This document shows, one piece after another, positions 2,715 through 17,331 of a stretch of 21,257 nt of DNA. Each line of letters opens with the position of its first letter. Within the stretch, counting starts at the first letter, position 1. The position numbers were made by a program, and so were the translations under genes. The stretch spans positions 1 to 21,257 of IMG/VR virus record IMGVR_UViG_3300037119_002466; one strand, 5' to 3'. Source of the stretch: a virus. A model generated the notes under the pieces. The model was given only the letters and a program-made list of their open reading frames with translations. It did no database searches and was not told the origin of the DNA.

Positions 2715-4067
2715 CTACGCCACCCAACGCATTTCCGCTGCCCTCACCGTGGCAGACACCCGAGCCCCACGCCCGAGCGGCTGGCACACCGGCACGCCAG
2801 GCAGCGCCCGCAGCGCCGCCCGCTGCTGCTCCAGGCTCAGCGCCTCCCACGCCACCGCCACATCCTCAGCGCCCAGCAGCGGAGCCAGCGGGCTGGTGCC
2901 CTCCGCCGCCGCCAGCGCCCGCTCCGCCTCCAGGATCTGTGGCCCGAGCGCCTTTGCCTGGTCCACCACCTTGGTGCGAGAGACGCCCAGCGCCAGGAGA
3001 TCCACCAGCCCGTCACGCTGCTCCACCAGATCCGCCAGCCGAGCCCGAGCCACGCCCAGGTCATCCACCCGCAGCAGGTCTGTGGGGTCCGTCATCTCCG
3101 TGACATAAGTCAAGACCGCCTCAGTGATGTGCTCATCAGTCACCGCCTGGTTGCGGCTCAGGTGGCAGCCAGCGCAGCGGTAGATCTTCACCGGCAGCGG
3201 CAGCCGCTTGCCTGAGTTGACCGCGCTAAACATCGGGCCACCGCAGCGGCCACACTCCAGGATGCCGGTTAGCAGGTAGCGGGCTGACCGCTCCGTCACC
3301 CGAGCCCTGCGCCTGGGGTCACCCAGCAGCGCCAGCAGCCTGGCGTGCGTCTCGGGCTCCACCACTACCGGGCCATGGGTGCCATAGTCCACGCCAGCCT
3401 TGGTCACCACGCGCCCAGCCAGGCGGGGCGCTGACAGCATCCTGCGGAGCGTGGAGACGTGCCAGGGGCCACCCTCGGTGGTGGACACCCCGCGGGCATT
3501 CCAGTCCCGCACGATGCCAGCCAGGCTCTCTCCCGCCAGCACCCCATCAGTGGCTTTGCGGATCTCCGCTGCCTCCACCTCATCCACGCTGCCATCACGG
3601 TGGAAGCCAAACGCCCGGTGCCGCCCCATCGGCTGCACCCCGCGGCTGCGCTCCTGGATGGTGGCCGCCTCCTGGCGCTTGCTCTTACGCTCGATCTCGG
3701 CAGTGGCCACGGCACACATCAGCCGAGCGGTCAGCCGCCCATCCACGGTGGTCAGGTCCACCACTGAGCCGGTCACTGAGTGAACCGAGATCTCCAGCGC
3801 AATGACCTTCTCCAGATCCGGACCCAGCCGCGCCAGCCGATCCTGCGCCCAGCAGACAATCACCTCGGGGCGGCTGGCCAGCATCTCATCAAACGCCCTG
3901 CGTGGCTTTCCGTTGGTGGCGCTGCGGTTATTGTCCCGGTACACCGGACCCACGTCGAAACCGAGCCGAGCGCAAAGGTCACGGCACTGCGCCTCCTGGC
4001 GCTCTACCGCCAGCCCTTCTCCTGAGCGGTCTTTGCTTTGGCGCACATAGATGGTGGCGGTGGTCAT
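2715..4067 (-). CDS. int: Large serine recombinase (phage integrase)
   Basis: 450 aa. The N-terminal resolvase/invertase domain (about 1-140) starts IYVRQSKD with nucleophile Ser11, followed by CWAQDRLARLGPDL (catalytic arginines around 77-80) and the long E-helix LTARLMCAVATAEIERKSKR. A recombinase domain follows (about 145-260: GRHRAFGFHRDG, GVSTTEGGPWHVSTLRRML). A zinc ribbon has ECGRCGG (Cys272/275) and YRCAGC (Cys298/301), and a helical coiled-coil region (about 325-410) ends the protein. This is the architecture of phiC31/Bxb1-type integrases; at 450 aa it is at the short end. GAGGAG lies 7 nt before ATG 4067. It catalyses site-specific integration between attP and a host attB, and the likely attP lies just upstream. 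Confidence 0.95.
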   Translation of the reverse strand: MTTATIYVRQSKDRSGEGLAVERQEAQCRDLCARLGFDVGPVYRDNNRSATNGKPRRAFDEMLASRPEVIVCWAQDRLARLGPDLEKVIALEISVHSVTGSVVDLTTVDGRLTARLMCAVATAEIERKSKRQEAATIQERSRGVQPMGRHRAFGFHRDGSVDEVEAAEIRKATDGVLAGESLAGIVRDWNARGVSTTEGGPWHVSTLRRMLSAPRLAGRVVTKAGVDYGTHGPVVVEPETHARLLALLGDPRRRARVTERSARYLLTGILECGRCGGPMFSAVNSGKRLPLPVKIYRCAGCHLSRNQAVTDEHITEAVLTYVTEMTDPTDLLRVDDLGVARARLADLVEQRDGLVDLLALGVSRTKVVDQAKALGPQILEAERALAAAEGTSPLAPLLGAEDVAVAWEALSLEQQRAALRALPGVPVCQPLGRGARVSATVRAAEMRWVA

Positions 4068-4082
4068 GGCGGATCTCCTCAG

Positions 4083-4117
4083 CAGGTGTGGCCAGGCTGC
4101 TCCTGGCCCCTCACCTG
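4083..4117 (-). other. Hairpin in the integrase leader
   Basis: Inverted repeat CAGGTG-t-GGCCAGG / CCTGGCC-cct-CACCTG (7 + 6 bp with an asymmetric bulge, 5-nt loop). It lies between the attP-like site and the integrase Shine-Dalgarno. In minus-strand RNA it folds directly before GAGGAG, so it could reduce read-through from the upstream small-gene operon or affect integrase translation. Confidence 0.45.
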
Positions 4118-4118
4118 C

Positions 4119-4166
4119 GAGTTTACCACGGTGACGCCTGGACCTAGGCTAACCCGTAGACCACTC
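4119..4166. other. attP: Candidate phage attachment site attP
   Basis: A 48-bp imperfect inverted repeat. The left arm (4119-4138, GAGTTTACCACGGTGACGCC) and the reverse complement of the right arm (4147-4166, GAGTGGTCTACGGGTTAGCC) match at 12 of 20 positions around an 8-bp centre, TGGACCTA. Length, imperfect dyad symmetry, non-palindromic centre and position just upstream of the integrase gene fit attP sites of large serine integrases. The right arm reaches the stop codon of the 4165-4344 gene. The exact core cannot be fixed without attL/attR. Confidence 0.5.
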
Positions 4167-4344
4167 AGTCACCGTTCTGGAGATCCAGCAGCCCCTCCTC
4201 TGCCAGCACCGCCTGGGCCAGCACCCGCTGGCGGTCACGCACCGCCAGCCAGAGCGCAGGCAGGTGGTCATCCCACGCCCCCGAGCGGATGGCTTCATGG
4301 GCAGCAAAGGCAGCAGCGGCCACGCCTGGCTGCTGCTCGGTCAC
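4165..4344 (-). CDS. Hypothetical helical protein (59 aa), last gene of the small-gene chain
   Basis: Starts at GTG 4344, which overlaps the upstream stop (GTGA). 59 aa: MTEQQPGVAAAAFAAHEAIR then DDHLPALWLAVRDRQRVLAQ, predicted helical and soluble. The stop lies at the outer edge of the attP-like dyad, so this is the last gene before the attachment site. No family is recognised; the overlap chain is the main support. Confidence 0.6.
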   Translation of the reverse strand: MTEQQPGVAAAAFAAHEAIRSGAWDDHLPALWLAVRDRQRVLAQAVLAEEGLLDLQNGD

Positions 4345-4469
4345 TGCTCGCACCCACCCTCTGAGTCATCCGCCAGCCACCAGAGCCACCACGCCCCCAG
4401 CCGCCTCAGCCAGTCCACCAGCGTGGCCCGCCATCCGTCAGCATGGCCACCGCCACCGCGGTCAGCCAC
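4341..4469 (-). CDS. Tryptophan-rich small protein (42 aa), possible membrane-interacting peptide
   Basis: GTG 4469 follows one base after the stop of the upstream microprotein, and the TGA at 4341-4343 overlaps the next gene's GTG. The product begins MADRGGGGHADGWR and continues ATLVDWLRRLGAWWLWWLAD, an amphipathic, Trp-rich helix that could lie at or cross the membrane, then an acidic tail ending GGCEQ. A competing reading in another frame (GTG 4474 to stop 4406, 22 aa) also shows a GTGA overlap. I prefer this frame because its stop couples to the next gene. Confidence 0.5.
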   Translation of the reverse strand: MADRGGGGHADGWRATLVDWLRRLGAWWLWWLADDSEGGCEQ

Positions 4470-4470
4470 C

Positions 4471-4560
4471 TCACCGCAGCCCCGAGTTGCTGAGCACCCA
4501 GAAGAATGCCACCGCCACCAGCAGCGCCAGGAGCACCACCGCCACCTCCCTTGCCTTCAC
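4471..4560 (-). CDS. Single-TM microprotein B (29 aa), paralogue of the upstream gene
   Basis: GTG 4560 overlaps the upstream stop by GTGA. The protein begins MKAREVAVVLLALLVAVAFF and ends WVLSNSGLR: a short positively charged N-terminus, one hydrophobic helix of about 17 residues, then a polar C-terminus. It aligns gaplessly with microprotein A over its length (shared ARE, AV, AL, AF, W, S, G, terminal R), so the two arose by tandem duplication. It may be a holin/antiholin-like, exclusion or membrane-regulatory peptide. It is too short for usual gene-calling cut-offs. Confidence 0.6.
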   Translation of the reverse strand: MKAREVAVVLLALLVAVAFFWVLSNSGLR

Positions 4561-4649
4561 CGGAAGTACCCCGCGTGGCTGACGGTCCAGAGAAACGCCA
4601 GCGCAATCAGCAGCGCCACGATGGCCACCGCCCACTCACGCGCTCTCAC
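4557..4649 (-). CDS. Single-TM microprotein A (30 aa)
   Basis: GTG 4649 overlaps the TGA of the 4646-4843 gene (GTGA). The product begins MRAREWAVAIVALLIALAFL and ends WTVSHAGYFR: basic N-terminus, one TM helix, short polar tail. The same layout and many of the same residues occur in the next gene. N-in/C-out topology is expected from the positive N-terminus. Function is unknown. The GTGA overlaps at both ends and the paralogue next door are the evidence that it is translated. Confidence 0.6.
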   Translation of the reverse strand: MRAREWAVAIVALLIALAFLWTVSHAGYFR

Positions 4650-4843
4650 GGCTCCGTCACCTCCCACACCAGATCTCTGAGGAGATCCGCAGGGTGGCGG
4701 TTGCAGCCAACGCACTTGCCATCATCCGCAGTGGCCACCGCTCCGTCACGCGCGTTGCATGGCGTCATGTCGCTGGCAGCGCGGGGGCAGCCGATGTGGC
4801 TGGGGGCATCGTCATACCGCCCATAACCGCCTGGCCCCTTCAT
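4646..4843 (-). CDS. Small zinc-binding protein (65 aa)
   Basis: I start at ATG 4843, which overlaps the preceding gene's stop (ATGA); upstream in-frame codons give a low-complexity Gly/Ala extension typical of antisense shadow. The 65-aa product has C19PRAASDMTPC, then DDGKCVGCNRHPADLL, i.e. C-x9-C ... CxxC-x-x-H, able to bind one zinc. It ends WEVTEP. It is a member of the zinc-knuckle-rich early operon 4165-5794. Confidence 0.65.
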   Translation of the reverse strand: MKGPGGYGRYDDAPSHIGCPRAASDMTPCNARDGAVATADDGKCVGCNRHPADLLRDLVWEVTEP

Positions 4844-5301
4844 GCCGCGGGCGGGTGGGCACGCTGGTGTTGCGTCATGCCCAGATAGGTGGCGTGCTCC
4901 AGCGGGCAGGCACCGCAGGTGAACCTGCGCCCCACCTCCCGCTCCACTTTGGCCAGCGCCTCCTGGTGCACCACTCGGCAGTGGGTAGCGGTGGCGGAGC
5001 GAGTTGGCCCCGAATACTCGCACCGCGGGCAGGTGCGCCCGAGCCGTTGCCACTCCGTCTCTGGTGCGTCAGGGTCCAGGAGGCTCCGCCCGGTGCTGGG
5101 ATTGGCGCTGCTGGCCCGCGGGCTGCTGCGGGCTCTGCGCCCATGGGTCTCCAGGAGGCTCAGCAGCCCCTCTAGCGGGCCAGAGTCATCTGGGCATAGG
5201 TCAACCTCCAGCCGCTGCCCATCCAGCGTCAGCGCGTGCTCTGTGGCTTTCTCCGCCCCGCATACGTCACACCGGACCACCCGCACTAGTTCGCTAGTCA
5301 T
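4840..5301 (-). CDS. Multi-zinc-finger protein (153 aa)
   Basis: ATG 5301 overlaps the upstream stop and has GAGAGG 8 nt before it. The N-terminus holds a CDVCG knuckle and a short beta domain (LTLDGQRLEVDLCPDD), a pattern found in small actinobacterial DNA-associated proteins. A Ser/Arg-rich linker follows (about 52-85). The C-terminal half carries RTCPRCEYSG with CRVVH, then FTCGACPLEHATYLGMTQHQ, which ends like a C2H2 finger (C..C-x12-H-x3-H). DNA or RNA binding is likely. The cell partner is unknown. Confidence 0.7.
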   Translation of the reverse strand: MTSELVRVVRCDVCGAEKATEHALTLDGQRLEVDLCPDDSGPLEGLLSLLETHGRRARSSPRASSANPSTGRSLLDPDAPETEWQRLGRTCPRCEYSGPTRSATATHCRVVHQEALAKVEREVGRRFTCGACPLEHATYLGMTQHQRAHPPAA

Positions 5302-5447
5302 CTCCACACCCTCTCCACCGCATGGGTGCCATCGTCCCGGTGCCGCACCCGCAGGTGCACCGGCTGGCGTTTCGCATCTCGGATGGGTGCAGAGGAGATC
5401 CACGCCCCGCAGGCGGGGCAGCGGACACCCTTTGGTGCTGGGCTCAT
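5298..5447 (-). CDS. Small CPxC zinc-knuckle protein (49 aa)
   Basis: ATG 5447 overlaps the stop of the 5444-5794 gene (ATGA) and its TGA overlaps the start of the next gene (ATGA), which sets its frame. It begins MSPAPKGVRCPACGAWISSA and continues with basic, His-containing residues (HLRVRHRDDGTHAVERVWR). One CPAC knuckle is present; with the two histidines it may form a zinc site. Without this gene the operon would have an unexplained 140-bp gap. Confidence 0.65.
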   Translation of the reverse strand: MSPAPKGVRCPACGAWISSAPIRDAKRQPVHLRVRHRDDGTHAVERVWR

Positions 5448-5794
5448 GACGCCCGCTGCCCGCGGCGCTTGGCAGTGATGGGTGTGACGTTCAGCCAGCG
5501 AGTGACGGTCTCCAGCCGCAGCGCGTCTCGGGCTGCTCCGTCCAGCCGCCCCAGCCCCTGGTGGGTGTAGCCATCGGGGTACGAATAGGAGCCCTTAATG
5601 GTGGCCCCAAAGGCACTGAGCCACTGCGTGCGGGTGGTGCTGCACCGTCCGCACTCCAGGGTGCGCTCATAGGCGTGCATCTCCCCATCCCACCTGGCGG
5701 TGCGTGCCCGCCAGGTGTGCCCATAGTCCCTGCACTCCAGGAACGCCTCAGGTAGCGAGTGAACGAAATTGGCTGACTCTGGATCTGTTGGCAT
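5444..5794 (-). CDS. Actinophage zinc-finger-like protein (116 aa), first gene of the small-gene operon
   Basis: 116 aa. The core (AFLECRDYGHTWRARTARWD ... RTLECGRCSTTRTQWL ... SYSYPDGYTHQGLGRLDGAARDALRL) resembles a family I recall from actinobacterial prophages and phages, with Cys21, His26 and a CGRC knuckle giving a zinc site and a conserved YPDGY. Function is not established; it is probably a nucleic-acid-binding early protein. AAGGGG lies 6 nt before ATG 5794. It heads the chain of eight overlapping genes and has a candidate promoter 40-70 bp upstream. Confidence 0.75.
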   Translation of the reverse strand: MPTDPESANFVHSLPEAFLECRDYGHTWRARTARWDGEMHAYERTLECGRCSTTRTQWLSAFGATIKGSYSYPDGYTHQGLGRLDGAARDALRLETVTRWLNVTPITAKRRGQRAS

Positions 5795-5863: not shown

Positions 5864-6022
5864 TTAAGACTCGGGTGTGTCCCAATCACCTCTGGCCCGC
5901 CGCCGCTCCCGCTCCTCATCATCGCGCCGCTCAGCGTCGAAACCGCGGCGCTCCTCCTCAGTGGGGTGCAGGCGGCTGGGGAAGCGCGGAGGGTCGCTCT
6001 GGTCGCTGGTCTGGTCGCTCAT
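5864..6022 (-). CDS. Small highly charged protein (52 aa)
   Basis: ATG 6022 overlaps the endolysin stop (TGATG). The 52-aa product starts MSDQTSDQSDPPRF and continues with a strongly charged helix (TEEERRGFDAERRDDEERER), ending DWDTPES. It is soluble, with no cysteines. The TAA stop lies inside a copy of the dispersed CTTAAG element. It is the last gene of the rightward-to-leftward late operon. It could modulate lysis, by position only. Confidence 0.6.
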   Translation of the reverse strand: MSDQTSDQSDPPRFPSRLHPTEEERRGFDAERRDDEERERRRARGDWDTPES

Positions 6023-6339
6023 CAGCCGGTCACCCGCCCGGTGACCACCGCAATCAGCACCAGCAGAGTCAGCAGGTTGGCCAGCACGCTGAAAGCCAGC
6101 GCCGCCAGGTGGTTGCTGCTGGAGCGGCTGCCAGTGCCGATGGAGTTAATGGCTTCCACGATTTCCTTGGTGCCATTGTGGTACGGGTCACCGGCTCCGC
6201 TCATCCCTTCCGAGCGCCACACCCCCACCTGCTCATCCATGCGCTGCTTAATCAGCGCATTACCGTTGGCGTTGGGGTCTCCGCTGCCAGAGATGCCCTC
6301 CGAGCGCCACGCGGCCACAAACTCATCAATATTGGGCAT
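6022..6339 (-). CDS. Nested in-frame product of the endolysin gene: repeat domain plus TM anchor (105 aa)
   Basis: Inside the endolysin frame, ATG 6339 (Met161) is preceded by a perfect AGGAGG 7 nt upstream, better than most start sites in this window. Translation there gives 105 aa: two 30-residue repeats, each with WRSEGxSGxGDP (at full-length residues 171 and 201), then a Ser-rich linker and one strong TM helix (full-length about 238-259, LAALAFSVLANLLTLLVLIA). It could be a holin-like or anchoring subunit made separately from the enzyme. Known endolysins from other phages use internal starts to make binding-domain subunits; here it is an inference. Confidence 0.5.
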   Translation of the reverse strand: MPNIDEFVAAWRSEGISGSGDPNANGNALIKQRMDEQVGVWRSEGMSGAGDPYHNGTKEIVEAINSIGTGSRSSSNHLAALAFSVLANLLTLLVLIAVVTGRVTG

Positions 6340-6819
6340 GTCATCCTCCTGTGATTGGTCATAGGTCTCCCAGGTCACGCCAACCCATTGGCGTGGCCCA
6401 TCGTCAGCCGCCCCGGATGCCAGCCCGTTGCGCCCCTCGTAGTAATCCACCACCTGGCCATGGGCACCGCTGCTGAGGCAGCCGCGGTCACCCTTCCCGC
6501 CAGGCTGCACCGCTATGCCGTGGAGGTGCCAGGGCCAGTCACTCTGGCTGGGGTCACGTATCCACATCGCCCAGCCCACCTGGCGGCCAGCGTCACGGAT
6601 GGCCACGCGGTCATCCTGGGTCATACCGCTGTCTTGCCCCGCCAGATCTATGGCCCCGCCACCGTCATGGGTGCCGCCGCTGGCGGCCACCCCGCCCGAG
6701 TAGGAGCCCTGGGTGGGTCGCACTTTGGCCGCCACGCCAGCGGGCAGCAGGTCAACCAGCCCTTGCATCATCTCGGCAGAGCGGTCATCCAGATACGCGC
6801 CCCGCCAGTAGGTGCTCAC
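6022..6819 (-). CDS. lysA: Endolysin, M15-type peptidase with C-terminal membrane segment
   Basis: 265 aa. Residues about 1-135 match the peptidase M15-like endolysin fold: SGGVAASGGTHDGGGAIDL with zinc ligands His51 and Asp58, and WPWHLHG with His98/His100 (the HxH motif). DYYEGRNGLAS is typical of the end of the actinobacterial domain. It should cut peptide bonds in peptidoglycan stem or cross-links. The usual catalytic Glu three residues before the HxH is not obvious (Trp/Asp there). The C-terminal part has two WRSEG repeats and a TM helix instead of a LysM or SH3 wall-binding domain. ATG 6819 overlaps the upstream stop by ATGA. Confidence 0.85.
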   Translation of the reverse strand: MSTYWRGAYLDDRSAEMMQGLVDLLPAGVAAKVRPTQGSYSGGVAASGGTHDGGGAIDLAGQDSGMTQDDRVAIRDAGRQVGWAMWIRDPSQSDWPWHLHGIAVQPGGKGDRGCLSSGAHGQVVDYYEGRNGLASGAADDGPRQWVGVTWETYDQSQEDDMPNIDEFVAAWRSEGISGSGDPNANGNALIKQRMDEQVGVWRSEGMSGAGDPYHNGTKEIVEAINSIGTGSRSSSNHLAALAFSVLANLLTLLVLIAVVTGRVTG

Positions 6820-7013: not shown

Positions 7014-7027
7014 AGCGAGATCTCCTC

Positions 7028-7534
7028 TCAGGCGGGCTGGGTGGGCATGAATAGCCCCGCCAGGGTGAAAGTGTTTCCGTTGCACGCCTGGGCGGTACGC
7101 CAGCCCCAGGAGCACATCTGGCCCGCCGCGGTAAATTGGTGCATGCCAGCCAGTGATGCACGGTCAGCGCCACCGCCATACCAGTTGACTAGGAATAACT
7201 TGGAGGAGCCGGGTGGGTTATTCCAGCCCATCCGCGTGGTGTCAGCGGGCAGGTAGAATAGTGCCGCCCAGACAAACACCCCAGGCACCTTACTGACGAT
7301 TCCGTCAGTGGCTGCGGTCACCACACTGCTCCCCGCGGTAACGGTTACCGGACCCACGCCATAGTCAGTATTGGCGGGCAGGTTTACCCCGCTGGTGGCG
7401 CTAACCCAGGTCCAGCGGTCATTAGACAGCACCAAATCCACATCCTGAGCCAGCGTCTGCCAGTGCTCCCAGGTGCGGGTGTGGTCGGTGCTCTCTGGGT
7501 AGGTGAGTTGGTAGCGGGTGGTTTTCTTGCTCAT
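7028..7534 (-). CDS. Minor tail protein (168 aa)
   Basis: 168 aa, rich in Gly, Thr, Trp and aromatic residues, with beta-structure predicted throughout: RTWEHWQTLAQDV near the N-terminus, then GVNLPANTDYGVGPVTV and LFLVNWYGGGADRASLAG. It begins within the preceding gene's stop (ATGA) and lies in the tail-tip cluster before the endolysin. Probably a receptor-facing or tip protein; no named family is recognised. Confidence 0.65.
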   Translation of the reverse strand: MSKKTTRYQLTYPESTDHTRTWEHWQTLAQDVDLVLSNDRWTWVSATSGVNLPANTDYGVGPVTVTAGSSVVTAATDGIVSKVPGVFVWAALFYLPADTTRMGWNNPPGSSKLFLVNWYGGGADRASLAGMHQFTAAGQMCSWGWRTAQACNGNTFTLAGLFMPTQPA

Positions 7535-16099: not shown

Positions 16100-16888
16100 A
16101 TGAGCACCACCGCCAACACCACCGCCCCTAAGACCACCGCTGGCAAGCCTGGCAAGGTCGTTGTGAAGTTGGGCGCTGACCTGAGCCCCGCTGTCAAGGC
16201 TCTGGAGACCGCCTACCGCATGATTCAGCGCCGCTACGCTGACGCCCCCAACGTGACCATTGTGGTTAAGCGCGACATGGTGGCATGGGGTCACACCACC
16301 ATTGCCCAGGTCTGGGCACCTAAGGCTGGCACCAAGGCTGGCCAGCCGGTCAAGGCTGACCGCTTTGAAATCATGATCTCCGGTGAGAATCTGGCGCGTG
16401 GCGCTGAGGCTGTCGCTGGCACGCTTCTCCATGAGGCAGCCCACGCCCGCAACCTGGCCCGCGGCATCCTTGACACGGATGTGAATGGCCGCCACAACGC
16501 CAAATTTAAGGCTACGGCTGAGGAGCACGGGCTGACGGTTACCGGTGAAGGGTGGCGCGGTTTCAACTCCACCGCCCTGGAGGCTCCTGGCCAGGAGACC
16601 TGGAAAGCCATGGTTGCCACCATCCAGCGCGGGCTGGATAAGTCAGCCCAGACCGCTGAGGCGCACCTGGATCACCTGGGCGTGGATGCGGTCAAGGGTC
16701 TGGTGCCGGTTGGCCCTGGCCGCCGCACCAAGGGCACCCCGGTGGCTCCGGTTGGCCCCCGCCGCCGCGGTGACCGCAACCTGGCCAAAGCCACCTGCGG
16801 CTGCGGTGACTCGATCCGCGCCAGCCGCGGTGTGCTGGAGCGCTGCGCCCCCACCTGCCAGGTGTGCGGCCAGGCGTTCACCGTCTGA
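16100..16888 (+). CDS. SprT-like zinc metallopeptidase with C-terminal zinc ribbon
   Basis: 262 aa. After a Thr/Lys-rich tail (1-20), helix AVKALETAYRMIQRRYADAP, then the zincin helix TLLHEAAHARNLARGI with His111-Glu112-His115 (HEAAH) and a downstream GRHNAKFKATAEEHGL in which His132 can be the third ligand: the SprT-like pattern. Residues about 205-230 form a basic linker, and C233GCG ... CAPTCQVCG a zinc ribbon. SprT/Spartan proteins digest DNA-bound proteins; in phages the target is unknown. GAGGAG is 7 nt before ATG 16100. It runs opposite to the structural genes, with its own promoter and terminator, as phage morons do. Confidence 0.85.
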   Translation: MSTTANTTAPKTTAGKPGKVVVKLGADLSPAVKALETAYRMIQRRYADAPNVTIVVKRDMVAWGHTTIAQVWAPKAGTKAGQPVKADRFEIMISGENLARGAEAVAGTLLHEAAHARNLARGILDTDVNGRHNAKFKATAEEHGLTVTGEGWRGFNSTALEAPGQETWKAMVATIQRGLDKSAQTAEAHLDHLGVDAVKGLVPVGPGRRTKGTPVAPVGPRRRGDRNLAKATCGCGDSIRASRGVLERCAPTCQVCGQAFTV

Positions 16889-16995: not shown

Positions 16996-17067
16996 TAAGC
17001 CATGGCCCAGAACATCACCCGCAGTGCCCAGCAGCAGGCTGGCACTCTTACCCGAAAGGGGAGCCCC

Positions 17068-17331
17068 ATGGCTCGCACGCTTGACCTGACCCTCACCCAC
17101 CGTGATGGCACCACGGTGCCGATGGTGGGGCTCCGCCCGGTGGAGGTGCGGGCTGCTCTCCTGGGTGGCCGCACCCGCAGCGGTGGCTGGGCAGCCGCTG
17201 GCTGGGATGACGCCCGCTGCGTCACCTGCGGTGATGTGGCAGCCTTCTGCCCCGATGTGCAGCGGGTGCTCTCCACCACGCTGGCTGGCCGCGTCTGGCT
17301 GGCTGAGCGCCAGGAGGCGCTGGTGGGCTGA
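17068..17331 (+). CDS. Small Cys-containing protein of the plus-strand island (87 aa)
   Basis: I choose ATG 17068, which has AAGGGGAG 5-8 nt upstream; in-frame ATG 17002 would start exactly where the transcript is predicted to begin and would be leaderless. 87 aa: MARTLDLTLTHRDGTTVPMV, VRAALLGGRTRSGGWAAAGW, then ARCVTCGDVAAFC with a CxxC-x6-C cluster and a helical C-terminus. No family recognised; a moron-encoded superinfection or host-modifying role is possible. Followed directly by a strong terminator. Confidence 0.7.
   Translation: MARTLDLTLTHRDGTTVPMVGLRPVEVRAALLGGRTRSGGWAAAGWDDARCVTCGDVAAFCPDVQRVLSTTLAGRVWLAERQEALVG

Follow-up and report, generated by a model that had tools for sequence, protein, structure and literature searches.

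Do two frames of 30 and 29 codons, set end to end in a phage genome, encode proteins, and if they do, what would such small membrane proteins do for the phage? The question arises at positions 4,471 to 4,649 of IMG/VR virus record IMGVR_UViG_3300037119_002466, which we analysed over its whole length of 21,257 bases (the window). Read from right to left, the minus strand carries terminase, portal, protease, major capsid, tape measure and tail genes, followed by a lysis-type gene (6819-6022), a chain of small genes and a serine integrase gene (4067-2715). Two genes on the opposite strand lie within the head module (16100-16888 and 17002-17331, plus strand), and the product of 16100-16888 has a HEAAH metalloprotease-like motif and matches phrog_6361. 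The phage relatives of the tail hub and phrog_4480 genes are actinobacterial phages, as are most of those of the integrase, so the host is probably an actinobacterium. The features from the lysis-type gene to the integrase are as follows.

6022-6819, minus strand: lysis-type gene, with a peptidase-like N-terminal half and a C-terminal TM helix
5444-5794, minus strand: phrog_4480 protein, 116 aa, conserved in actinophages beside Lsr2 genes
5298-5447, minus strand: small gene for a Cys-containing product of 49 aa, flanked by those for phrog_4480 and the Lsr2-like protein, with a weak coding signal
4840-5301, minus strand: Lsr2-like N-terminal/zinc-finger protein, 153 aa (phrog_4061, E 1.3e-6; phrog_6509, Lsr2-like, E 0.006)
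4646-4843, minus strand: 65-aa Cys/His-containing gene upstream of C, its start overlapping the previous stop
4557-4649, minus strand: microprotein C, 30 aa, GTG start, VRAREWAVAIVALLIALAFLWTVSHAGYFR
4471-4560, minus strand: microprotein D, 29 aa, GTG start, VKAREVAVVLLALLVAVAFFWVLSNSGLR, paralogue of C
4406-4474, minus strand: 22-aa frame, VRWLTAVAVAMLTDGGPRWWTG, its GTG overlapping the stop of D as GTGA
4341-4469, minus strand: 42-aa Trp-rich frame, starting 1 nt after the stop of D
4165-4344, minus strand: gene F, 59 aa, GTGA-coupled to the 42-aa frame and the final gene before the integrase
4128-4135 and 4168-4175: perfect 8-nt inverted repeat (ACGGTGAC/GTCACCGT, 32 nt apart), candidate attP core
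2715-4067, minus strand: serine integrase (Resolvase, Recombinase, zinc ribbon)

The frames of C and D, their overlaps, their paralogy, their coding-like codon use and the selection on their hydrophobicity were computed from the DNA. A sequence-only reading had placed two adjacent, GTG-started single-TM microproteins here, and both frames lie exactly where it put them, each start overlapping the stop before it as GTGA (4649-4646 for C, 4560-4557 for D), an overlap of -4 nt in both cases. The basic N-terminus and single TM helix that it described hold as well. Each protein has one strongly hydrophobic stretch at about residues 6-23 (KD17 2.8 and 3.1 for C and D), with the helix of C at about residues 7-23 and followed by a short polar tail; in both, about six residues extend past the helix. 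By the positive-inside rule, C and D are predicted to be N-in, with about six residues outside. A strong Shine-Dalgarno sequence, GGGAGGTGA at 4665-4657, stands 7 nt before the start of C, whereas D has just GGGG at a similar distance, a weak site that fits re-initiation after C. No sigma-70-like promoter was found near the two genes, and terminator-like matches inside C and D were read as chance, since they fall within coding sequence and their T-runs are interrupted.

The two proteins had also been described as paralogues that align without gaps, which the alignment bears out. It is ungapped over 27 residues with identities in 16 of 30 columns, and its score of 79 compares with 19 +/- 9 in shuffles kept within the N-terminal, helix and tail segments, none of 20,000 being as good. 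At the DNA level the copies are 75% identical over 64 nt, and the neighbouring DNA is not part of the duplication. The conserved positions were not found to gather on one helix face, and there is therefore no sign of a shared C/D interface. The 22-aa frame after D was considered as a third copy and rejected: it has a 12-nt word in common with C and nothing more, and it is not significantly similar to either protein.

Whether C and D are translated genes was approached through codon use and the pattern of their divergence. Codon log-odds trained on the large genes of this phage give 11.8 bits for C and 20.8 bits for D, where coding windows average 11.8 and wrong-frame open windows -8.3; only 0.2% of the latter reach the score of C and none of 8,906 that of D, a result that is not proof by itself because hydrophobic proteins use codons that score well. 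The best coding frame changes exactly at the gene borders, from the 65-aa gene to C and from C to D. Stop-start-coupled hydrophobic frames of this size did not occur in 200 dinucleotide shuffles of the strand, and both strands of 157 kb of loosely related phage DNA hold two coupled hydrophobic microprotein pairs only, C/D and a pair in the IMG/VR phage L007. Such tiny coupled membrane-protein pairs are thus rare. Between C and D, changes at codon positions 1, 2 and 3 number 12, 5 and 9, and dN/dS is about 0.8, a value that by itself shows no constraint. We simulated neutral divergence from each copy, scattering the same number of changes at random. Plain identity was not unusual against this simulation, but replacements as conservative as those observed were rare (P 0.007 from C, 0.001 from D), as was hydropathy as high (P 0.0006 from C, 0.03 from D). 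Since neutrally diverged copies rarely stay this hydrophobic or change this conservatively, both copies look selected, with the hydrophobic helix kept in each. Chance openings or untranslated relics would agree with the GTG starts, the dN/dS near 0.8 and the lack of relatives outside this record; set against the log-odds, the shuffles, the selection-like replacements and the strong Shine-Dalgarno sequence ahead of C, they are a highly improbable explanation of the pair.

Downstream of D the picture is less simple than the sequence-only reading had it, in which the next gene was the 42-aa Trp-rich one. That frame exists, but it does not overlap D, and the GTGA-coupled frame is the 22-aa one. 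There the coding score gives the 22-aa frame a slight edge, with 7.7 bits for its 22 codons compared with 4.5 for the 20 codons of the 42-aa frame that overlap it. No TM helix is predicted for the Trp-rich frame, and a later start at 4418 would yield 25 aa. Its end, at least, is probably coding, because the tail DDSEGGCEQ recurs with synonymous differences in L003 and L004, directly after the phrog_4480 gene. Gene F has no family match. The further claim that the chain lies next to attP is plausible only, resting on the position of the 8-nt inverted repeat upstream of the serine integrase gene. A GC-rich hairpin at 4082-4118 (GCAGGTGTGGCCAGG...CCTGGCCCCTCACCTGC), in the gap that separates gene F from the start of the integrase, may be a terminator or a site regulating the integrase.

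At the other end of the chain, the lysis-type gene has no family match. Its AlphaFold model is unusable (mean pLDDT 35, the C-terminal TM helix being the sole confidently modelled part), so that the enzyme class is a reading of the motif THDGGGAID...WHLHG in the N-terminal half. Inside this gene (6337-6350, minus strand) AGGAGG stands five bases before an in-frame ATG (6339), which could start a separate 105-aa product carrying the C-terminal TM helix only. At the equivalent place the lysis-type gene of the relative L003 also has an in-frame ATG, with GAAGAGG ahead of it, although its C-terminal part lacks a TM helix. Downstream of that gene, L003 also has a 34-aa single-TM frame (7009-6904, minus strand) with a good Shine-Dalgarno sequence, MGWLVGIGIVVGAAVVVAVAAERYASWYQRGGGS, head-to-head with a two-TM frame (7022-7342, plus strand).

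Homologues of C and D were found neither in phages and viral contigs nor, with D alone as the query, in plasmids, and in ten virus records, this one and nine related ones, the only matches were C and D themselves. Scanning genome contigs with the phrog_4480 and lysis-type genes gave no result, and searches with the tail hub and Lsr2-like genes were also without success. Profiles from Pfam, PHROGs and PADLOC gave no significant match to either protein, the best being at chance level (E 0.07 or worse), and no PADLOC defence family matched. In the collections searched C and D thus appear to be orphans, and without a homologue conservation across species cannot be shown.

Positional analogues do recur. 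We reached related operons through phrog_4480, and the gene names given for them are our reading of the translations. The L005 operon runs terminase, phrog_4480, Lsr2-like gene, a GTGA-coupled 44-aa single-TM protein and portal. L007 has a replication region, a coupled pair of 31- and 54-aa TM proteins, HNH, phrog_4480, an Lsr2-like gene and a GTGA-coupled two-TM protein. In L018 several single-TM microproteins surround phrog_4480, and a TM protein of 39 aa, GTGA-coupled, separates phrog_4480 from a TM-anchored lysis-type gene. Small coupled membrane proteins beside phrog_4480/Lsr2 genes are therefore a recurring arrangement. The L007 pair (4477-4572 and 4569-4733) comes closest to C/D in form, in that its members are adjacent and stop-start-coupled (by ATGA) and the first, of 31 aa, has one helix and a charged N-terminus; unlike C and D, they show no evident paralogy, the second is longer, and the pair sits in an operon after a large replication-type gene. 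Alignment scores of the L005 and L007 proteins with C and D do not convincingly beat shuffles, and shuffles also ruled out the L005 microprotein as a homologue of C on a W-x-S-x-G alignment. The bacterial protein YohP (27 aa) is likewise essentially one helix of about 30 residues, but it is the product of a single host gene and not of a tandem phage pair (PMC7549839). C and D thus belong to a broad class of phage single-TM microproteins, and it is their tandem coupled duplication that is unusual. As a separate observation, phrog_4480 followed by an Lsr2-like/zinc-finger gene forms a two-gene module in the window (5444-5794, 4840-5301) and in L005, L006, L007, L008, L014 and L018, at varying positions: in the terminase-portal gap (L005), near replication genes (L007) or beside lysis-type genes (L008, L018).

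Among possible functions, the sequence-only reading had offered holin/antiholin or exclusion factors. A holin/antiholin-type pair that times lysis with the lysis-type gene 1.4 kb upstream could well lie downstream of that gene on the same strand, as C and D do; several TM proteins are common in actinophage lysis cassettes (PMC9671378), F1 phages use two holin-like proteins (PMC13056207), and the 39-aa protein of L018 is placed next to a lysis-type gene. However, actinophage one-TM holin-like proteins are 79-145 aa long and N-out-C-in, with a cytoplasmic C-terminal tail of 52-115 aa (PMC9671378). LysF1b fits this type (PMC13056207), whose members are, like C and D, single-helix proteins made by actinophages, often encoded near other TM proteins and the endolysin, but have a large charged tail. 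C and D, at 30 and 29 aa, are nearly tail-less, and their basic N-termini suggest the opposite orientation. Nor do they share an array with an endolysin and at least two further TM genes: they lie about 1.4 kb away, separated from the lysis-type gene by several zinc-finger/regulatory genes, and the lysis-type gene has a TM helix of its own. Because their size and predicted topology differ from those of the holin-like type, and because the L007 pair lies outside the lysis region in a replication-gene operon, the holin side of the proposal is weakened to the point where we regard it as quite doubtful. Exclusion is a possible role, because C and D lie between the lysis-type gene (6022-6819) and the integrase (2715-4067), a location that fits an exclusion protein.

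There are two further explanations. C and D could be early microproteins, unrelated to lysogeny, that take over or regulate the host by binding one of its membrane proteins during lytic growth. The operon had been called early-looking, and the Lsr2-like/zinc-finger and phrog_4480 genes do have early or replication genes nearby in L007, L014 and mycobacteriophages. Operons of this kind often contain small membrane proteins among those compared here. In the window, however, the late strand carries the chain, between the lysis-type gene upstream and the integrase, and a search near the genes gave no early promoter. This explanation is next in likelihood after an accessory membrane pair, though we would still call it unlikely. 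Type I toxin peptides are about 30 aa long with a single helix, and C and D would fit a small toxin pair of this kind, whose induction would depolarise the membrane. Neither an antisense RNA nor an Rfam match nor a promoter of their own was found, and embedding in a coupled gene chain argues against tight separate control, which makes a toxin pair very unlikely.

Our preferred reading, held tentatively, is that tandem duplication gave rise to a pair of small accessory membrane proteins, C and D, which may work as a hetero-oligomer in exclusion or in modulating the membrane. Their role is probably an accessory one in the membrane of the infected cell and not one in lysis. We favour an accessory pair because the holin type fits poorly, because the lysis-immunity interval of cluster N phages holds defence genes and because -4 overlaps are commoner in genes for heteromers. 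In cluster N mycobacteriophages this interval is variable and contains several membrane proteins and mapped defence genes (PMC7542560); in the Charlie prophage a single membrane protein excludes DNA injection (PMC6426606); and -4 overlaps are over-represented in genes that encode partners in a heteromeric complex (PMC10666635). In phage Rando14 the arrangement is as in the window: lysis genes, small genes and a serine integrase. The defence proteins of cluster N and related prophages (Charlie, Butters gp31, Sbash gp31, CarolAnn gp43) are, like C and D, membrane proteins, the cluster N genes lying in a comparable position between lysis and immunity genes, and some belong to two-gene systems. 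Compared by description, Butters gp31, Sbash gp31 and CarolAnn gp43 differ from C and D in being larger four-helix proteins with a cytosolic partner.

Expression, topology, oligomerisation and function we infer, and on that basis we can offer a rough proposal. C and D would be two real genes that arose by duplication in tandem within a chain of small, overlapping genes of one orientation. At the GTGA overlaps a ribosome ending one gene could start the next; through this coupling C and D would be made together in a fixed ratio, and a mixed oligomer would be possible. Each protein would span the inner membrane with one helix, its Arg/Lys-containing end on the cytoplasmic side and some six residues exposed outside. 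The position of the chain, between the lysis-type gene and the integrase with its candidate attP, would be the site where temperate actinophages carry variable accessory genes, and the pair would most likely modulate the membrane, either in the lysogen or at an early stage of infection, superinfection exclusion being one example. A more specific version, in which C and D are a minimal two-component device forming a mixed channel or plug in the lysogen membrane that excludes or aborts other phages, is a long shot; if true, such a device would be smaller than the two-gene prophage exclusion systems compared here.

The pair, which comes from a soil phage that probably infects actinobacteria, is a clean case of duplicated genes whose products are close to the smallest size for membrane proteins, and both copies are arguably used. 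If C and D form a complex or exclude phages, they would serve as a model of very small size for both helix-helix assembly and prophage defence. More generally, very small coupled genes between the lysis and integration modules of phages can be real and are easily overlooked.
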